Shown: one piece after another, positions 1 to 5,126 of the stretch
How the letters are laid out: every line of letters begins with the position of its first letter
Position numbering within the stretch: position 1 is the stretch's first letter
NCBI GenBank assembly: GCA_030695265.1
Contig: JAUYTA010000700.1
Span: forward strand, 1-13,611
Source of the DNA: Bacteroidota bacterium
GTDB taxonomy: Bacteria > Bacteroidota > Bacteroidia > Bacteroidales > Prolixibacteraceae
Direction: 5' to 3'
DNA: 13,611 nucleotides
The notes under the pieces: model-generated
The model's input: only the letters and a program-made list of their open reading frames with translations
Databases searched by the model: none
Told to the model about the DNA's origin: nothing
Program-made: the position numbers and the translations under genes

Positions 1-479
1 TCAATTGAACGGATCAGAATCGGGATGATTAGAAAAGTTACAGTCAGAATACCGGCCAGTAATGACGACCGTAATCCGAGATAAACCATCAGGGTAAATC
101 CAAAAGCGCCGTAAACAATGGATGGAATTCCGAACAGGACATCAAACGATAAGCGAGTAAATTGTGCCAGTCGCGAGTTTTCAGGCAAATAGAGGTTAAT
201 GTACAAAACGATCGGCAGACTGAAACTCAGTCCCAAAGTAATTGATCCGATCACAATGTACAACGATCCAATAATCGCGTTCAGCAAACCACCTTCCTTG
301 CCAATGTAAAAACCACCACCCGGGATTTTAGAAACCATGTCCCAACTCATTGCCGGAAGTCCACGTTTGACAACTGCAAAAATGATCATCAAAAGAGAAA
401 CAACAATGACCATCGTGGCACCCATCATCAGCCCTTTGAATATCTTTTCCTCTAATTTTATAATTCTGAAATGTTTCAT
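1..479 (-). CDS. pstA: PstA-like ABC transporter permease, 3' end beyond the window
   Basis: Inner-membrane permease of a PstSCAB-type anion importer, pairing with PstC. Only the first 159 residues are present; the reading frame is open to the left edge. The protein starts MKHFRIIKLEEK, has a membrane segment at about 18-38, a periplasmic stretch with PGGGFYIGKEGG (53-64), and then further membrane segments. GIPSIVYGAFG (117-127) is the PstA/PstC family signature and matches the GIPPVVYGVWG of the neighbouring PstC. The ATG at 479-477 is the first plausible start and lies 18 nt after a 22-codon ORF that overlaps the pstC stop. A pstB ATPase gene is expected further left but is not visible. 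Family assignment is firm; the substrate is inferred from the operon and is uncertain, because the binding protein is divergent. Confidence 0.93.
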   Translation of the reverse strand, partial: MKHFRIIKLEEKIFKGLMMGATMVIVVSLLMIIFAVVKRGLPAMSWDMVSKIPGGGFYIGKEGGLLNAIIGSLYIVIGSITLGLSFSLPIVLYINLYLPENSRLAQFTRLSFDVLFGIPSIVYGAFGFTLMVYLGLRSSLLAGILTVTFLIIPILIRSI

Positions 480-497
480 GTGAATATTATTTGTTTT

Positions 498-566
498 TTA
501 ATTGACACATGGAACTCCCAAATAGTCATTCTCCTGTTTGATAATGTTTTCTAATGGTCGTTTCAT
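498..566 (-). CDS. 22-residue ORF between pstC and pstA
   Basis: Small ORF starting MKRPLENIIKQE and ending GVPCVN before a TAA stop. Its ATG overlaps the pstC stop codon in an ATGA arrangement, which is the classical layout for coupled translation, and it ends 18 nt before the pstA ATG. Composition is protein-like (charged N-terminal helix, then a short YLGVPC tail with one Cys), but at this length chance cannot be excluded. It has no match to a family I recognise. It could be a tiny transporter subunit, a translational relay keeping ribosomes moving from pstC to pstA, or spacer. Support is the ATGA junction and the in-frame length only. Confidence 0.45.
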   Translation of the reverse strand: MKRPLENIIKQENDYLGVPCVN

Positions 567-1474
567 AATGCAAAATTCTTTTCAATCCGGATTAAAACCA
601 ATCGTGAAATAGCATTAAAAGCAAGGATTATTACAAATAAGAGCAAGGCTGAAAGCATAAGTGCCGCATCGTACATCGGGATCGACATCATTTCGCCGTA
701 ATTGTTTGCAATGAGTGCAGGCAAGGGATAGGCAGGATCAAAAAGATTTTTTGGCACTTCCGAGACATTTCCGCAGACCATCAGCACGGCAATTGTTTCG
801 CCAAAAGCCCGCGAAAGAGCCAACACCACTGCGGCTGCCAGTCCCGGAAACGATTTGCGCAAAACTACTTTCTTGATGGTTTGCCAGTTTGTTGCACCCA
901 ATGAAAGCGAGGCTTCGCGCAATCCGCCGGGCAAGGCATCGAAGATTTCAATAAATACAGAAATCATCAATGGAATGATCATGATTGCCAGTACAATTCC
1001 ACCGGCCAGCACGCTATACCCGGTTGAAAACTCGACAAAATGTGGAGCAAGTGTTTCTGATATAAAAGGCACCACCACTAAAATACCCCAAACGCCATAA
1101 ACTACCGGCGGAATTCCGGCCAATACATCAACCATCGGGAAGACAATCTTTTTGATGTATGGATGGGCATATTCCGAAAGGTAAATTGCAGCAAGTAAAC
1201 ACAGCGGCAGCGAAAGAAATATAGCGAGTCCGGTAACCCACAAGGTTCCCATTATAAACGGGTAAAAACCAAATTCTCCCTTTAATGGCCGCCAGCTTTC
1301 ACCGGTCAAAAGGGACCACAACGATTGCTGATCCAAAATCGGCACCGATTTTAAATACAGGCTGATGCCGATGATGACAGCAAATGACAAAGAAATCAGT
1401 GTCAGGAAAAGCATTGAATTCCTGATCACCAATTCCTTTATCTGGCGGTATTTATTGTATCGAATTTTATCCAT
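563..1474 (-). CDS. pstC: PstC-like ABC transporter permease
   Basis: Inner-membrane permease partner of PstA, 303 residues, the usual PstC length. Membrane segments are visible at about 19-41, 73-100, 110-136, 153-178, 210-234 and 268-294. GIPPVVYGVWG (120-130) is the PstC/PstA signature, and EASLSLGATNWQTIKKVVL (187-205) is the cytoplasmic EAA loop that docks on the ATPase. The ATG follows the TAG stop of the pstS-like gene with no gap and there is no clear Shine-Dalgarno sequence, so translation is probably coupled. The 3' end overlaps a 22-codon ORF by ATGA. The protein looks intact and complete. Confidence 0.95.
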   Translation of the reverse strand: MDKIRYNKYRQIKELVIRNSMLFLTLISLSFAVIIGISLYLKSVPILDQQSLWSLLTGESWRPLKGEFGFYPFIMGTLWVTGLAIFLSLPLCLLAAIYLSEYAHPYIKKIVFPMVDVLAGIPPVVYGVWGILVVVPFISETLAPHFVEFSTGYSVLAGGIVLAIMIIPLMISVFIEIFDALPGGLREASLSLGATNWQTIKKVVLRKSFPGLAAAVVLALSRAFGETIAVLMVCGNVSEVPKNLFDPAYPLPALIANNYGEMMSIPMYDAALMLSALLLFVIILAFNAISRLVLIRIEKNFAL

Positions 1475-2434
1475 CTATTTTATTTGTTCTAGTCCTGCTG
1501 CAAGTTTTTCTTTCGAAAGATTGATATACCCACTGTCGAACACGTATTTCTGACCTTCGGTGAGCGACCACCGAATGAATTCAACAAGTTCGTTTTTTAC
1601 CGGTTTTTTTAATGTTACAAAATACAGGTCGCGTGCCGGTGGTGAGGGATATTTGCCTGATGCAATCGCGTTAACAATTTCATCCATTGTACCATAAAAA
1701 TTTTCCTCCTGATCTATTTTCCCGTTGTTGTTGATGTCCAGCGGAACCACTTTAATACCCGGATTGGGTTTTTTAGTTTTCGCATCGTAGGCATAACCAA
1801 TGTTGTTGAATGCAATTCCCGATGGGTCTTTCGAAACAGCCTGTGCCAAACCGGGATCACCAAAAACGCCCACACCCAGAAGGTCTTCCTGCTTTTTACC
1901 CAGGTATGCGGCCCAGGTTTCGGCAGCGCCACAAGCATCAGAACGGGTATAAACACGTATTGGAACTGCGCTTTTTGTACCGAGTGCCTGCCCCCAGGTT
2001 TTGGTCTTACCCGTTATGAAGATGTTAACAGCAGCTTCACGATCCAGTCCAATTGTAAGGATGTCTTTGATATTAGGGTTCTTTTCACTGATTGTTGGAA
2101 CCACCGCATCTTTACTTAGCGCAATTGCATAAGCACCTTTCTTCAATTCGTCAGGGTTTATTTCACGTGAAACCAAACCGATATCTACCATATTTGAAAG
2201 CACATCGGTAATACCTTTTCCGGCACCTCCGGCTGAAATATCAATTTTTACTCCCGGATGAATTTTTTTGAATTCTTCGGCCCATTTTACTGTAAGCGGA
2301 TATAGTGCAAATGCACCGGAAATACTGATGTTCCCTTTTAAAGCCTCCTTGGGCTGACTATTCACTTTTGATATTGAAAGTGAACCAATCACTAACAGTG
2401 CAAAGAAATAGGAGGTTAATTTTTTCATAATCAT
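1475..2434 (-). CDS. pstS: PstS-like periplasmic anion-binding protein
   Basis: Periplasmic solute-binding protein of the PBP-like-2/PstS family, 319 residues. A Sec signal peptide covers about 1-26 (KK, hydrophobic core, cleavage near VNSQ) and there is no lipobox Cys, so the mature protein should be soluble. A second ATG at residue 3 (MKKLTS) is an equally good start. The fold signature is SGAFALYPLTVKWAEEF (38-54), SAGGAGKGITDVL (67-79) and VDIGLVSREI (83-92). By eye, the phosphate-binding R-A-D-G-S-G-T segment of E. coli PstS corresponds to R-S-D-A-C-G-A here (164-170), so a Ser and a Thr ligand become Cys and Ala. Residues 233-244 form an EF-hand-like calcium loop. Abuts pstC directly. 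Family is secure; phosphate specificity is not. Confidence 0.9.
   Translation of the reverse strand: MIMKKLTSYFFALLVIGSLSISKVNSQPKEALKGNISISGAFALYPLTVKWAEEFKKIHPGVKIDISAGGAGKGITDVLSNMVDIGLVSREINPDELKKGAYAIALSKDAVVPTISEKNPNIKDILTIGLDREAAVNIFITGKTKTWGQALGTKSAVPIRVYTRSDACGAAETWAAYLGKKQEDLLGVGVFGDPGLAQAVSKDPSGIAFNNIGYAYDAKTKKPNPGIKVVPLDINNNGKIDQEENFYGTMDEIVNAIASGKYPSPPARDLYFVTLKKPVKNELVEFIRWSLTEGQKYVFDSGYINLSKEKLAAGLEQIK
1703..1738 (-). other. EF-hand-like Ca-binding loop within the PstS-like protein
   Basis: Codons 233-244 read DINNNGKIDQEE. This fits the 12-residue EF-hand loop pattern: acidic or amide ligands at positions 1, 3 and 5, Gly at 6, a hydrophobic residue at 8, Asp at 9 and Glu at 12. 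It is followed by aromatic NFY. Calcium binding is inferred from the motif only; the flanking helices of a full EF-hand are not evident, so it may be a dockerin-type isolated loop. Confidence 0.6.
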
Positions 2435-2496: not shown

Positions 2497-3636
2497 TTAA
2501 AATCCAATCTGAAGCTGGGCGTTGGCAAAATTGTTATCAATGCTTGTTCCTTCTTCCTGCTTGATGGAGTAGTTGACCAGCAATTTGGTATTTGCATTGA
2601 AGTTATAATTTGCACCTAACACCACCCAGGTTGAAGCATCATCAGCTTTGGCCTTATCTGCATCATAAAAATCATACTTGGCTACCACTTGTACTTTTTT
2701 CTGAAGAAAATAATATGCTCCCAGAACATAGTAACCTTCGCGTTCGGTCAAATCATCCTTGCCATAAATGTATTCACTGCGCAGAGAGAAATTTTTAAGA
2801 TCGTAGCTCAGATCGAATCCCAAACGATCGCGGTTGACTATTTTTGAAGGAGTAGTTACGACCGTTCCGGTTTTTACTTCAGGCACAAAACGTGAACCAT
2901 CATACCATGCGCCACTAAATGCCAGACCAGTTACCGGATAAAAAATAAGGCGTGCTGCATAATCCTTTTCCTCATCTTTATCAGCAGTATTAATTCCTGA
3001 ACCGTTGTAAACACCCAATCGGTAATCCACCACCGGACGGTTTTTCAATTTCAGAAGTGTACCACCAAGCAGAATACCTATGTCGCGTCCATTCTGGTTG
3101 CCACCCACGTCTTTTCCACGGGCAGTTAAAGCTTCTACTGCCTGCGAACGGTCTATCAGTTCCAATTTAGGCGAACTTGTAAGGTTTTCGAGCGAGAATG
3201 GGATTTTTGCCTGACCAAAAGTGATATTCAAATAATCGTTCACTTTTAATTCAGCATAGGCATCAATCAGTTTCGGCGATCCGGCCAAATCGAATTGTAA
3301 CCGATACCCCCAGTATGGTGAAATGTTTCCTTTTAAATCAATACGTGCCCGGCGGATATCGAACCCATCAATTGCACCTGTTTGTTCCAGTGCCTGATAA
3401 CGTATTTGTGTATAGCCTGCAAGAGTGATTTTTTTCGCCGCATTTACCGGAAACGCCTTTACCTTGGCCAGATTTGCCTGCGTAGCAATAGCAGCTTCCG
3501 CACGAATTGAATCAGCTTCCTTTTGTGCGATAAGATTTTTCTGAACCAAACCATTCAGTATATCATCGGTCGATTGCGAACTTGAAGTAAGGACAAAAAC
3601 CACAAGCACTATTATTAATAAGAGTAATTTTTTCAT
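2497..3636 (-). CDS. OprO/OprP-like outer-membrane porin
   Basis: Outer-membrane channel of the phosphate-selective porin O/P family, 379 residues. A signal peptide spans about 1-20 (MKKLLLLIIVLVVF). Residues 22-60 form a polar helical, probably coiled-coil segment (STDDILNGLVQKN, EADSIRAEAA), which is a trimerisation-type N-terminus often seen in this family. The barrel begins near 70 (ITLAGYTQIRYQA). Family hallmarks are FDIRRARIDLKGNI (92-105) and GQAKIPFSLENLTSSPKLEL (141-160), and the last residue is Phe (LQIGF), the outer-membrane insertion signal. It is first in the operon, 62 nt before the PstS-like gene, so it probably supplies the same anion across the outer membrane. The channel may not be phosphate-specific. 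Confidence 0.9.
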   Translation of the reverse strand: MKKLLLLIIVLVVFVLTSSSQSTDDILNGLVQKNLIAQKEADSIRAEAAIATQANLAKVKAFPVNAAKKITLAGYTQIRYQALEQTGAIDGFDIRRARIDLKGNISPYWGYRLQFDLAGSPKLIDAYAELKVNDYLNITFGQAKIPFSLENLTSSPKLELIDRSQAVEALTARGKDVGGNQNGRDIGILLGGTLLKLKNRPVVDYRLGVYNGSGINTADKDEEKDYAARLIFYPVTGLAFSGAWYDGSRFVPEVKTGTVVTTPSKIVNRDRLGFDLSYDLKNFSLRSEYIYGKDDLTEREGYYVLGAYYFLQKKVQVVAKYDFYDADKAKADDASTWVVLGANYNFNANTKLLVNYSIKQEEGTSIDNNFANAQLQIGF

Positions 3637-3677: not shown

Positions 3678-3720
3678 TTTTTGGACTTCATTTTCTGAAG
3701 TTAAACCCAACAGCCAAAAA
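3678..3720 (-). promoter_or_regulatory. Two-part hairpin in the porin mRNA leader
   Basis: On the minus-strand transcript, TTTTTGG pairs with CCAAAAA and, inside it, ACTTCA pairs with TGAAGT around a GAAAA loop. A 12-nt bulge sits on the 5' side. The structure lies about 41 nt before the porin ATG. It lacks a following U-run, so it is not a plain intrinsic terminator. It may affect leader stability or translation. Confidence 0.35.
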
Positions 3721-3797
3721 TACATACTCCAATAAAGCATCATGATTAATCCATAATTGGATAATTTAGGACTGAGACTGAAATTTAATAGGAGGAC

Positions 3798-3815
3798 CCA
3801 TTAAATATTTAATGG
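3798..3815. promoter_or_regulatory. Perfect 18-bp palindrome, possible operator
   Basis: CCATTAAATATTTAATGG is a perfect inverted repeat with no spacer, between the Cys-rich leader ORF and the porin gene. It could be an operator or an RNA hairpin of weak, AU-rich stability. No regulator can be assigned. Confidence 0.35.
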
Positions 3816-3871: not shown

Positions 3872-4003
3872 TTAGCTGCACATTCGCATTCGGAGAGTCG
3901 AACTACACAATTGGAGGCAACAACAACAACGGCCAGCATTGTGGTTGCCAGTACCGTTCATCCGGAGTAAATTCTGATTGGATATTTGTTGCGTTTTGTT
4001 CAT
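3872..4003 (-). CDS. Cys-run leader peptide, 43 residues
   Basis: An ORF starting MNKTQQISNQNLLRMNGTG, with AGRCCCCLQLC in its middle (Cys at 26-29 and 33) and a sixth Cys near the end (MCS). GATAAAGAG directly precedes the ATG and is a weak ribosome site. The four Cys codons (TGT TGT TGT TGC, at 3917-3928) lie in the 3' arm of an RNA hairpin at 3916-3949. It is the only ORF of note in the 604-bp gap before the porin operon and reads in the operon's direction. Cys-run upstream ORFs that sense cysteine are known in mycobacteria. By analogy this could be an attenuator for the porin-Pst-like operon, but no terminator is obvious downstream. It may also be a non-functional chance ORF. Confidence 0.5.
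   Translation of the reverse strand: MNKTQQISNQNLLRMNGTGNHNAGRCCCCLQLCSSTLRMRMCS
3916..3949 (-). promoter_or_regulatory. RNA hairpin overlapping the leader Cys codons
   Basis: In the minus-strand transcript, GGCAAC pairs with GTTGCC and, after one mismatch, ACAA pairs with TTGT; two G-U pairs may extend it. The loop is about 8 nt. The 3' arm contains the Cys codon run of the leader ORF, so a ribosome slowed at these codons would open the stem. Confidence 0.45.
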
Positions 4004-4026: not shown

Positions 4027-4034
4027 CAAAGATG
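4027..4034 (-). promoter_or_regulatory. Possible -7 box for the leader and porin-pst operon
   Basis: CATCTTTG on the minus strand matches the Bacteroidota -7 consensus TAnnTTTG except at the first base. It lies 23 nt before the leader ATG. No -33 TTTG is seen at the usual distance, which would fit a promoter that depends on an activator. Confidence 0.35.
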
Positions 4035-4056
4035 AAACAGAAAAGTAAGTCAGGAA

Positions 4057-4097
4057 ATACCTTGTTTCGGGTAAATTATATACCACAAATGAGGTAT
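4057..4097. promoter_or_regulatory. Two tandem TACC-N8-GGTA dyads
   Basis: ATACC-8nt-GGTA at 4057-4073 and ATACC-8nt-GGTAT at 4080-4097 repeat with a 23-bp offset, about two helical turns. They sit between the leader ORF (minus) and the Crp/Fnr gene (plus), so a bound dimer could control either. No protein can be assigned. Confidence 0.35.
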
Positions 4098-4240: not shown

Positions 4241-4930
4241 ATGTTTTTAAATGAAACCAAGCAGGAGTATTCCTGGTTCAGAAGAATTTCGTCGCAATTC
4301 ATTGCTGAAAAAGACTTCGAAAAATTAGAAAGAACCTCGGTTAAACTCAATTTCAGGAAAGGGGAAACCATTTTGAAACAGGGCGGAATTCCCAATCACA
4401 TAGCATATCTCGAAAAAGGGATTGTGAAATTCAACTACGAAAGCGAATCTGGAAAAAACCTGATTCTGACCATTGTTTCGGCTCCAAAAATTTTGGGTGG
4501 AGCCAACCTTTTTTATAAAGACAATAATCTTTTTTCACTCATAGCTGTTGAAGATTGCGAGGTCATAATGATTGACTCCAAAGTGATCCAGGATGTACTA
4601 ATAGACAATTCGAAATTTGCCATGATGATGTTTCAGGTGGCTTCTGAAATGTTTAAAAAATCGGTCATGAACTTTATAAGCCTGGCACACAAGCAAAAGG
4701 AAGGACGGATCGCCGACATTTTTTTGTACCTGGCTGATGAAGTTTACCACAATTCTACTTTTCTCCTTTCGCTAACCCGAAAAGAAATTGCCGAATTTGC
4801 AGGTTGTTCCACCGAAAATGTGATTATGACTTTATCCAAATGGCAAAACGAGAAAATTATTACTTTGGTTGGGAAGACAATTGAAATCAAAGACATGAGT
4901 AAATTGAAGTATATCAGCAAAATAGGATAA
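4241..4930 (+). CDS. Crp/Fnr-family transcription regulator (first copy)
   Basis: Cytoplasmic DNA-binding regulator, 229 residues. An N-terminal cyclic-nucleotide-binding-type beta barrel (about 20-118) includes FRKGETILKQGG (38-49) and AVEDCEVIMI (102-111). A long dimer helix follows (120-150), then GRIADIFLYL (155-164) and a C-terminal winged helix with LTRKEIAEFAGCSTENVIMT (178-197). The phosphate-binding-cassette residues of cAMP-binding Crp are not apparent, and there is no N-terminal Cys cluster, so neither cAMP nor an Fe-S cluster is supported; the signal is unknown. It is divergent from the leader-porin-pst operon and shares a 237-bp upstream region with the leader ORF, which makes control of that operon plausible. 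It is a paralogue of the regulator at 10287-10982. Confidence 0.9.
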   Translation: MFLNETKQEYSWFRRISSQFIAEKDFEKLERTSVKLNFRKGETILKQGGIPNHIAYLEKGIVKFNYESESGKNLILTIVSAPKILGGANLFYKDNNLFSLIAVEDCEVIMIDSKVIQDVLIDNSKFAMMMFQVASEMFKKSVMNFISLAHKQKEGRIADIFLYLADEVYHNSTFLLSLTRKEIAEFAGCSTENVIMTLSKWQNEKIITLVGKTIEIKDMSKLKYISKIG

Positions 4931-5126
4931 GGATGTTAACCTGCTCGAAATCGTCAGGCTTTTTGAAGGAAGCATTGCCATGTTGAAATGCACTTCAGAA
5001 AAATACTACGAAGCCTGCGAACGTTGCAAAGACGAAGAGAATTGTTCCATCCGCAAAACATCTAAAGACATCAGGACTTATACGTATAACGAACTGGCAG
5101 CAACTTCATTGGAAATGCTCATCTGA
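4926..5126 (+). pseudogene. C-terminal remnant of an Rrf2-family regulator
   Basis: The reading frame, +1 relative to the upstream crp gene, is open from its stop codon and encodes about 66 residues. It reads DVNLLEIVRLFEGSIAMLKC, then YYEACERC and KDEENCSIRKTSKD, and ends LAATSLEML. This matches the C-terminal half of Rrf2/IscR-type proteins (LLDIIEAIEGPIAL, CERxxxCPLR, then the TLADL-like end) and keeps four Cys of the kind that bind an Fe-S cluster. The N-terminal winged helix is absent. The internal ATG at 4980, with GAAGGAAG seven nt before it, could allow a 48-residue Cys-rich protein (4980-5126) to be made. I read it as a decayed gene, with possible survival as a mini-protein. Confidence 0.6.

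Follow-up and report, generated by a model that had tools for sequence, protein, structure and literature searches.

A conserved cysteine-run leader ORF in a sulfur/cysteine regulon of Prolixibacteraceae

In a 13,611-nt stretch of Prolixibacteraceae DNA (the window), a short ORF containing consecutive Cys codons lies upstream of a porin gene and Pst-like transport genes. We found that this ORF is real, conserved and part of a sulfur/cysteine regulon. Judging from sequence comparison, it probably encodes a leader peptide through which a sulfur-assimilation operon senses the supply of charged tRNA-Cys. Together with a shared promoter element, the leaders described here would outline the sulfur/cysteine regulon of Prolixibacteraceae.

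The leader ORF and its distribution

The ORF occupies positions 3872..4003 on the minus strand (43 codons from ATG, followed by TAA). Its 43-aa product, MNKTQQISNQNLLRMNGTGNHNAGRCCCCLQLCSSTLRMRMCS, contains four consecutive Cys residues, encoded by TGT TGT TGT TGC at 3917..3928 (minus), and two further Cys. The ORF is oriented towards the porin gene (2497-3636) and then the Pst-like genes. A first-pass annotation of the window had described these features, and the ORF list confirmed them. The pattern RCCCC, here CGNTGYTGYTGYTGY, occurred once in the window's own genome, and its reversed control occurred there three times. A single copy of the Cys run is no better than chance, and it is conservation that raises the leader above chance. 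No match was obtained in a protein-database search with the window ORF as the sole query or in a comparison of the ORF with Pfam and NCBIfam. Rfam covariance models, including riboswitch and leader families, likewise gave no match in the window at the gathering threshold.

Searching 140 genomes of the family, we identified eight leaders, spread over six genomes from two Prolixibacteraceae genera; a weak match in G004 was rejected on reading. In the protein database, a profile search picked up one further leader-type peptide, of metagenomic origin. It also showed that one leader (G011, upstream of metY) corresponds to AQPE_4071, a hypothetical protein of Aquipluma nitroreducens, which is a member of the Prolixibacteraceae (Bacteroidota). 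All eight leaders are located directly upstream of metY (four), a porin-Pst-like operon (two) or a SusC/SusD operon (two). With the G008 version as query against 61 genomes including the window's own, five leaders were found at E <= 3.1e-8; 30 of the 61 genomes gave some match up to E 1, all matches other than these five leaders being weak. The 23 genomes of the window's genus contain six leaders in five genomes. Conservation of the Cys run and the start codon in close relatives had been proposed as a check, and both are kept in four genomes of the same genus. Three genomes with a close porin carry the porin operon without a leader (G001, which is 66% complete, G020 and G021).

The genes behind the leaders vary. 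The G008 leader, like that of the window, directly precedes the porin gene. In G003 and G011 the leader precedes metY, with the porin and Pst-like genes next, and in G018 it precedes metY and pstS, with no porin match. A second leader of G011, MKVSNKHNTYRISTSLFMLNSCCCCCPFTSRMRMCFS, is followed by SusC/SusD genes and a gene for a TlpA-like protein. G857, the representative of the other genus, has two leaders, one before SusC and one before metY, and the neighbours of these are orthologous to those in G011 (metY 87%, SusC 82% and SusD 88% identical). Two ortholog pairs, the metY leaders and the SusC leaders, thereby retain the Cys run and RMRMC across genera. The ATG of the G857 SusC leader is farther from its -7-like box than in other leaders, and the predicted start of this leader is less certain. 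The leader-bearing SusC/SusD operon (L062:9471-10706, L223) also encodes an AhpC/TSA (TlpA-like) protein that is 73% identical across genera. This operon may import a sulfur compound.

We also approached the leaders from their neighbours. Seven relatives of the porin with at least 49% identity were found besides that of the window. The leader is immediately upstream of the porin in G008 and ahead of metY in G003 and G011, and it is missing in G001, G020 and G021; at the seventh locus (G042), only 62 nt of upstream sequence are available, too few to decide on the presence of a leader. Leaders were present upstream of 3 of 30 metY homolog loci and 1 of 30 SusC homolog loci, with little or no upstream sequence at L138, L158 and L165. 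Loose regular-expression matches at two metY and three SusC loci were dismissed on reading. A scan of genome contigs with one short peptide pattern returned three loci, each of them one of the leaders described above. In a sample of 393 genomes of the order, the window's genome alone scored below E 1e-10, and the matches in 15 other genomes (E 1.6e-4 to 0.01) were rejected, the tail described below being absent from all. In a sample of 395 genomes of the class, the window's genome alone was found at E <= 1e-4. These nulls are soft: the G857 leaders score only 6.6e-5 and 1.2e-4, and equally diverged leaders would escape, chiefly in the class sample.

Promoter element, sulfur/cysteine regulon and Pst-like operon

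Upstream of the leader, at 4055..4097 (minus), lies a 43-bp promoter/operator-like element, ATACC-N8-GGTAT-N6-TACC-N9-GGTATTT, which also precedes other genes, among them cysK and a sulfite-reductase-like gene. The arrangement ATACC-N8-GGTAT-N6-TACC-N9-GGTAT is common to five leaders and is one base longer in G018. The element of the G011 SusC leader is more degenerate (score 30.3 vs 59.6-61.4). In G857, the copy at the SusC leader is weaker (20.3) and the metY leader has a half match (4.6). The weight matrix was built from eight sites and is circular for those eight. It found the element before cysK (21.7) and a NirA/sulfite-reductase-like gene (19.6) of G003, and cysK sites in G008 and G010 were found by DNA search. 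The shuffle control gave zero matches over the threshold of 15 (295,338 bases, one strand, mononucleotide shuffle).

The product of metY scored above the cut-off for O-acetylhomoserine/O-acetylserine sulfhydrylase, and genes for cysK, a NirA/sulfite-reductase-like enzyme and uroporphyrinogen-III methyltransferase are located near metY. Because the promoter element is shared with cysK and the sulfite-reductase-like gene, we place the Pst-like operon of the window in the sulfur/cysteine regulon. The first-pass annotation had suggested that the leader would link cysteine supply to uptake of an anion. This is reasonable, since leaders precede sulfur genes and the Pst-like operon shares its promoter element with genes of cysteine synthesis. 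The other element-bearing genes have no Cys ORF; the element is often found without a leader, and the leader is an added layer.

A -7-like box, CATCTTTG, is found at 4027..4034 (minus), 23 nt before the leader ATG, and six leaders have such a box 22-25 nt ahead of the ATG. They match the TAnnTTTG consensus reported for a flavobacterium (PMC9723704). Genes of Crp type and Rrf2 type are both close to the element. The divergent Crp/Fnr-type regulator at 4241..4930 (plus) is a candidate for acting on it. The Rrf2 regulator at 4926..5123 (plus) is represented by its C-terminal half only and is whole in relatives. The remnant, which follows the Crp-type gene, corresponds to residues 70-135 of the G008 protein; either a deletion or an assembly fault would account for the halved gene.

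Other genes behind the element were noted. In G018 (L064:6718-10676), the element lies 243 nt upstream of a gene starting MKRIRIQIFIALFLCTIAANGQEAIKISGTKFTYPIV, the product of which looks like a binding protein, and an 853-aa ORF is next. A protein of ~120 aa follows the sulfur promoter element or cysK at L194:1595-1951, L195 and L196:2566-2931, the G011 copy having no Pfam or NCBIfam match. In G011 and G003, a 119-aa gene follows the element; its assignment as HemD-like was rejected, the G011 copy being without a match in Pfam (E 1e-5) or NCBIfam (E 1e-20).

The first gene downstream of the leader in the window encodes a porin (Porin_O_P; 2497..3636). It is followed by genes for a PstS-like substrate-binding protein (1475..2434), a PstC-like permease (563..1474) and a PstA-like permease (3..479), all on the minus strand. 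The last is cut by the contig end and was recognized by its place after PstC and a PstC-family match below the cut-off. A second PstC match over the family cut-off was present in six of the seven genomes examined, the exception being G018, and the Pst-like system of the window is thus a paralog. Comparison of the PstS-like protein with phosphate-binding proteins of the PDB gave modest scores (best E 1.6e-16) that do not settle the ligand. From regulon membership, we infer sulfate as the ligand. If this is true, a PstSCAB-type importer and a porin carry a sulfur anion, probably sulfate, and not phosphate.

The porin gene has an upstream region of its own. About 190 nt are common to the upstream regions of seven porin genes, some preceded by a leader and others not, and all seven contain a TAnnTTTG match. 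This box is TATTTTTG in six of them (3715..3722, minus, in the window) and TAATTTTG in G020. A palindrome-like sequence, CATTAAATATTTAATG, lies before the porin gene at 3799-3814 (minus); relatives have near copies, of which that in G020 is the most degenerate. A block TACAGTAAATCAATNGA is present in all seven regions, and both sequences are likely sites of another regulator. Given this promoter-like region of the porin gene, any action of the leader in the window would be limited to the transcript from further upstream, and the porin itself may be only partly affected. Against the earlier description of the ORF as the leader of a porin-Pst-like operon, a porin is not the typical first gene, metY standing behind four of the eight leaders, and in the window the porin gene has this conserved upstream region with its TAnnTTTG box.

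Cys run, invariant tail and RNA structure

The eight genomic leaders have a common layout: a run of three to five Cys, four to eight residues, RMRMC, one or two residues and the stop. When nine sequences were aligned, the start, one Arg, three Cys and RMRMC were invariant. The N-terminal halves diverge and are unconserved in the SusC-type and other-genus leaders. Cys codons differ between leaders (TGC TGT TGC TGC TGT; TGT TGC TGC; TGT TGT TGT), and the G018 leader has just three Cys in its run. Because both run length and codon choice vary, we conclude that Cys itself is held.

RMRMC is encoded by a 14-mer, CGAATGCGAATGTG (3879..3892, minus), that is identical in all eight leaders. In a tail-anchored alignment these were 14 consecutive identical bases, with two other identical columns within the 60 surrounding bases. 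Both Arg codons of the tail are CGA in every leader; in eleven genes of the neighbourhood, CGA makes up 13% of the codons for Arg. The invariance of the 14-mer indicates that selection extends beyond the peptide and that the tail is held at the nucleotide level too. It needs more than Cys sensing as an explanation.

For the five closest leaders, in-frame pN/pS was 0.54, and the two alternative frames gave 0.91 and 1.43. The in-frame value was 0.56 after removal of gap columns, and 65 of 1000 column shuffles were equally low; by itself this test is only suggestive. The DNA alignment of these ORFs contains two gaps, each three bases long.

The first-pass annotation had placed the Cys run in the 3' arm of a hairpin (3916..3949, minus) that a stalled ribosome would open. 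The arms (3944-3949 with 3916-3921, GGCAAC/GUUGCC) are present in the sequence, but the hairpin was not supported as the working part: no compensatory change was found in the five close leaders, the N-terminal half of the ORF, which supplies the 5' arm, is unconserved in diverged leaders, and there was no excess folding. When 424 nt around the hairpin were folded, the Cys run paired elsewhere in the minimum-energy structure, with an energy z-score of -0.98 vs shuffles, and in six leaders the ORF folded no better than synonymous versions. Three stems were tested and rejected with zero two-sided changes in the five close leaders: the CUGGCAA:UUGCCAG stem of the first-pass annotation (87.5% of cells paired), a CUGGCA:UGCCGG stem (90%) and a stem between the TQQ-codon arm and the Cys run (96%), the TQQ arm of which is lost in diverged leaders. 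Pairing of this arm with the Cys run was above the synonymous average in five leaders (3-11% of 200 versions as high) and not above synonymous versions in the G011 SusC leader.

Possible output steps were also analysed. We rejected the idea that the Cys run sequesters the gene start, because equally good or better pairing was seen for 31-95% of 81 background starts. The pairing of the metY start, ACAACACA, was striking at first sight, yet it was matched by other starts. As a sign of a Rho site, the C-over-G bubble between leader stop and gene did not stand out, being equalled or exceeded in 7-77% of 74 background regions (16% for the window). Both tests cover six leaders, the two G857 leaders being excluded from the former.

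A hairpin of the tail and stop codon was compared with 60 downstream shuffles. As strong a hairpin was found in 0-2% of these for G003, G008, G011 and the G857 SusC leader, in 13% for the G857 metY leader and in 17% for the G011 SusC leader. It was no better than shuffles in the window (43%) and in G018 (98%). Compared with 91 other stop codons, 3-29% were as strong for the first six leaders, 79% for the window and 86% for G018. This hairpin was sought after several other structures, and G003 and G011 are closely related, so that it can be taken as no more than a lead.

In seven of the eight leaders, including that of the window, no terminator-like site in the direction of the gene was found between the stop codon of the leader and the gene. 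The G857 SusC leader has one terminator-like hairpin before SusC (L221:1373-1394; 7 pairs and a T-rich tail). A classical attenuator is possible at this leader, and one output step may not serve all leaders. In the window and G003, a weak terminator-like site lies within the ORF, the Cys run supplying its T-rich part.

Mechanism and relation to known leader peptides

The tail could itself be the active part, as a cis RNA element or through RMRMC-dependent arrest of the nascent chain, so as to halt or release ribosomes or bind a factor, with the Cys run only modulating its action. This would explain why CGAATGCGAATGTG is the sole block of identity when leaders are anchored at the tail, and both the uniform CGA codons and a tail/stop hairpin that beats nearly all shuffles in four leaders point the same way. 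However, the Cys run is conserved too, and the hairpin is moderate in two leaders and not better than shuffles in the window or G018. We regard this explanation as possible but doubtful.

A functional Cys-rich micropeptide for metal, redox or sulfide binding, with no action in cis, is improbable. The conserved start, Cys run and C-terminus and the low in-frame pN/pS are consistent with it, whereas the N-terminal half differs between genera, the tail is invariant at the nucleotide level, eight of eight ORFs are directly upstream of operons and the window ORF has no Pfam or NCBIfam match. We give the least credence to a chance or relic ORF without function, with the promoter element alone mattering. 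The Cys-run codon pattern is not rare in the window's genome, other element-bearing genes and the porin operons of G001, G020 and G021 do without a Cys ORF, and the coding signal was matched by some column shuffles, but run and tail are kept in eight leaders of two genera despite variable flanks.

The most likely reading is a leader peptide that reports charged tRNA-Cys. The transcript would start ~20 nt before the ORF, as judged from the -7-like box, at a promoter with the sulfur-regulon element, and the leader would be translated. When Cys-tRNA is scarce, the ribosome is predicted to slow at the three to five Cys codons. When it is plentiful, the ribosome would cross the CGAAUGCGAAUGUG tail and stop one or two codons on. 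The position of the ribosome would decide whether the tail, or the stop-codon hairpin of several leaders, stays free, and this in turn would control how strongly metY, SusC/SusD or the porin-Pst-like anion importer is expressed. A stall may be coupled to expression through Rho, through translation or perhaps, in one SusC leader, through a terminator. Tentatively, we propose a cysteine-responsive leader class of Bacteroidota whose invariant CGAAUGCGAAUGUG/RMRMC tail, as an RNA element or an arrest peptide, may read out a stall at the Cys run in place of a terminator or a sequestered start. The 14-nt tail is a concrete signal and, unlike the hairpin of the first-pass annotation, the conserved part. 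The idea is testable because Aquipluma nitroreducens, among the carriers, is a named species and its genome is in a single contig.

In classical attenuators (trp, his, ilv), the leader peptide is rich in the amino acid that is sensed. The Prolixibacteraceae leader peptides are similarly enriched in the presumed sensed amino acid; in contrast to those attenuators, seven of the eight have no terminator-like site, the G857 SusC leader having one. In tnaC, which senses Trp, the outcome is tied to the position of the ribosome near the leader stop. The outcome could hinge on the same position in the Prolixibacteraceae leaders, which have no Trp sensor.

Clues to leader-peptide attenuation before amino-acid operons of a flavobacterium have been described, cysteine not being named there (PMC9723704). 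Among the literature matches listed, as judged by title and opening of the abstract, none concerned a Cys-run leader in Bacteroidota. In the sources available to us, cysteine leader peptides have so far come from Actinobacteria, and the eight Prolixibacteraceae leaders would bring a second phylum. For cys operons of Actinobacteria, poly-Cys leader ORFs were predicted by Seliverstov et al. 2005 (PMC1262725), who name a tnaC-type, Rho-linked leader as a possible parallel; the Cys codons of these ORFs are clustered near the stop, and there is no conserved terminator. Such leaders have been tested in Mycobacterium smegmatis, where they are reported to be leaderless (Canestrari et al. 2020, doi 10.1111/mmi.14498). 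The Prolixibacteraceae leaders resemble the actinobacterial ones in being short ORFs with a Cys run near the stop, before sulfur/cysteine operons and without a conserved terminator. In contrast to M. smegmatis, a 5' UTR of ~20 nt is predicted for them from the position of the -7-like box, which in six leaders argues against a leaderless start. They also differ from the actinobacterial leaders in belonging to another phylum, in their invariant RMRMC/CGAATGCGAATGTG tail and in their targets, which are metY, SusC/SusD and porin-Pst operons.
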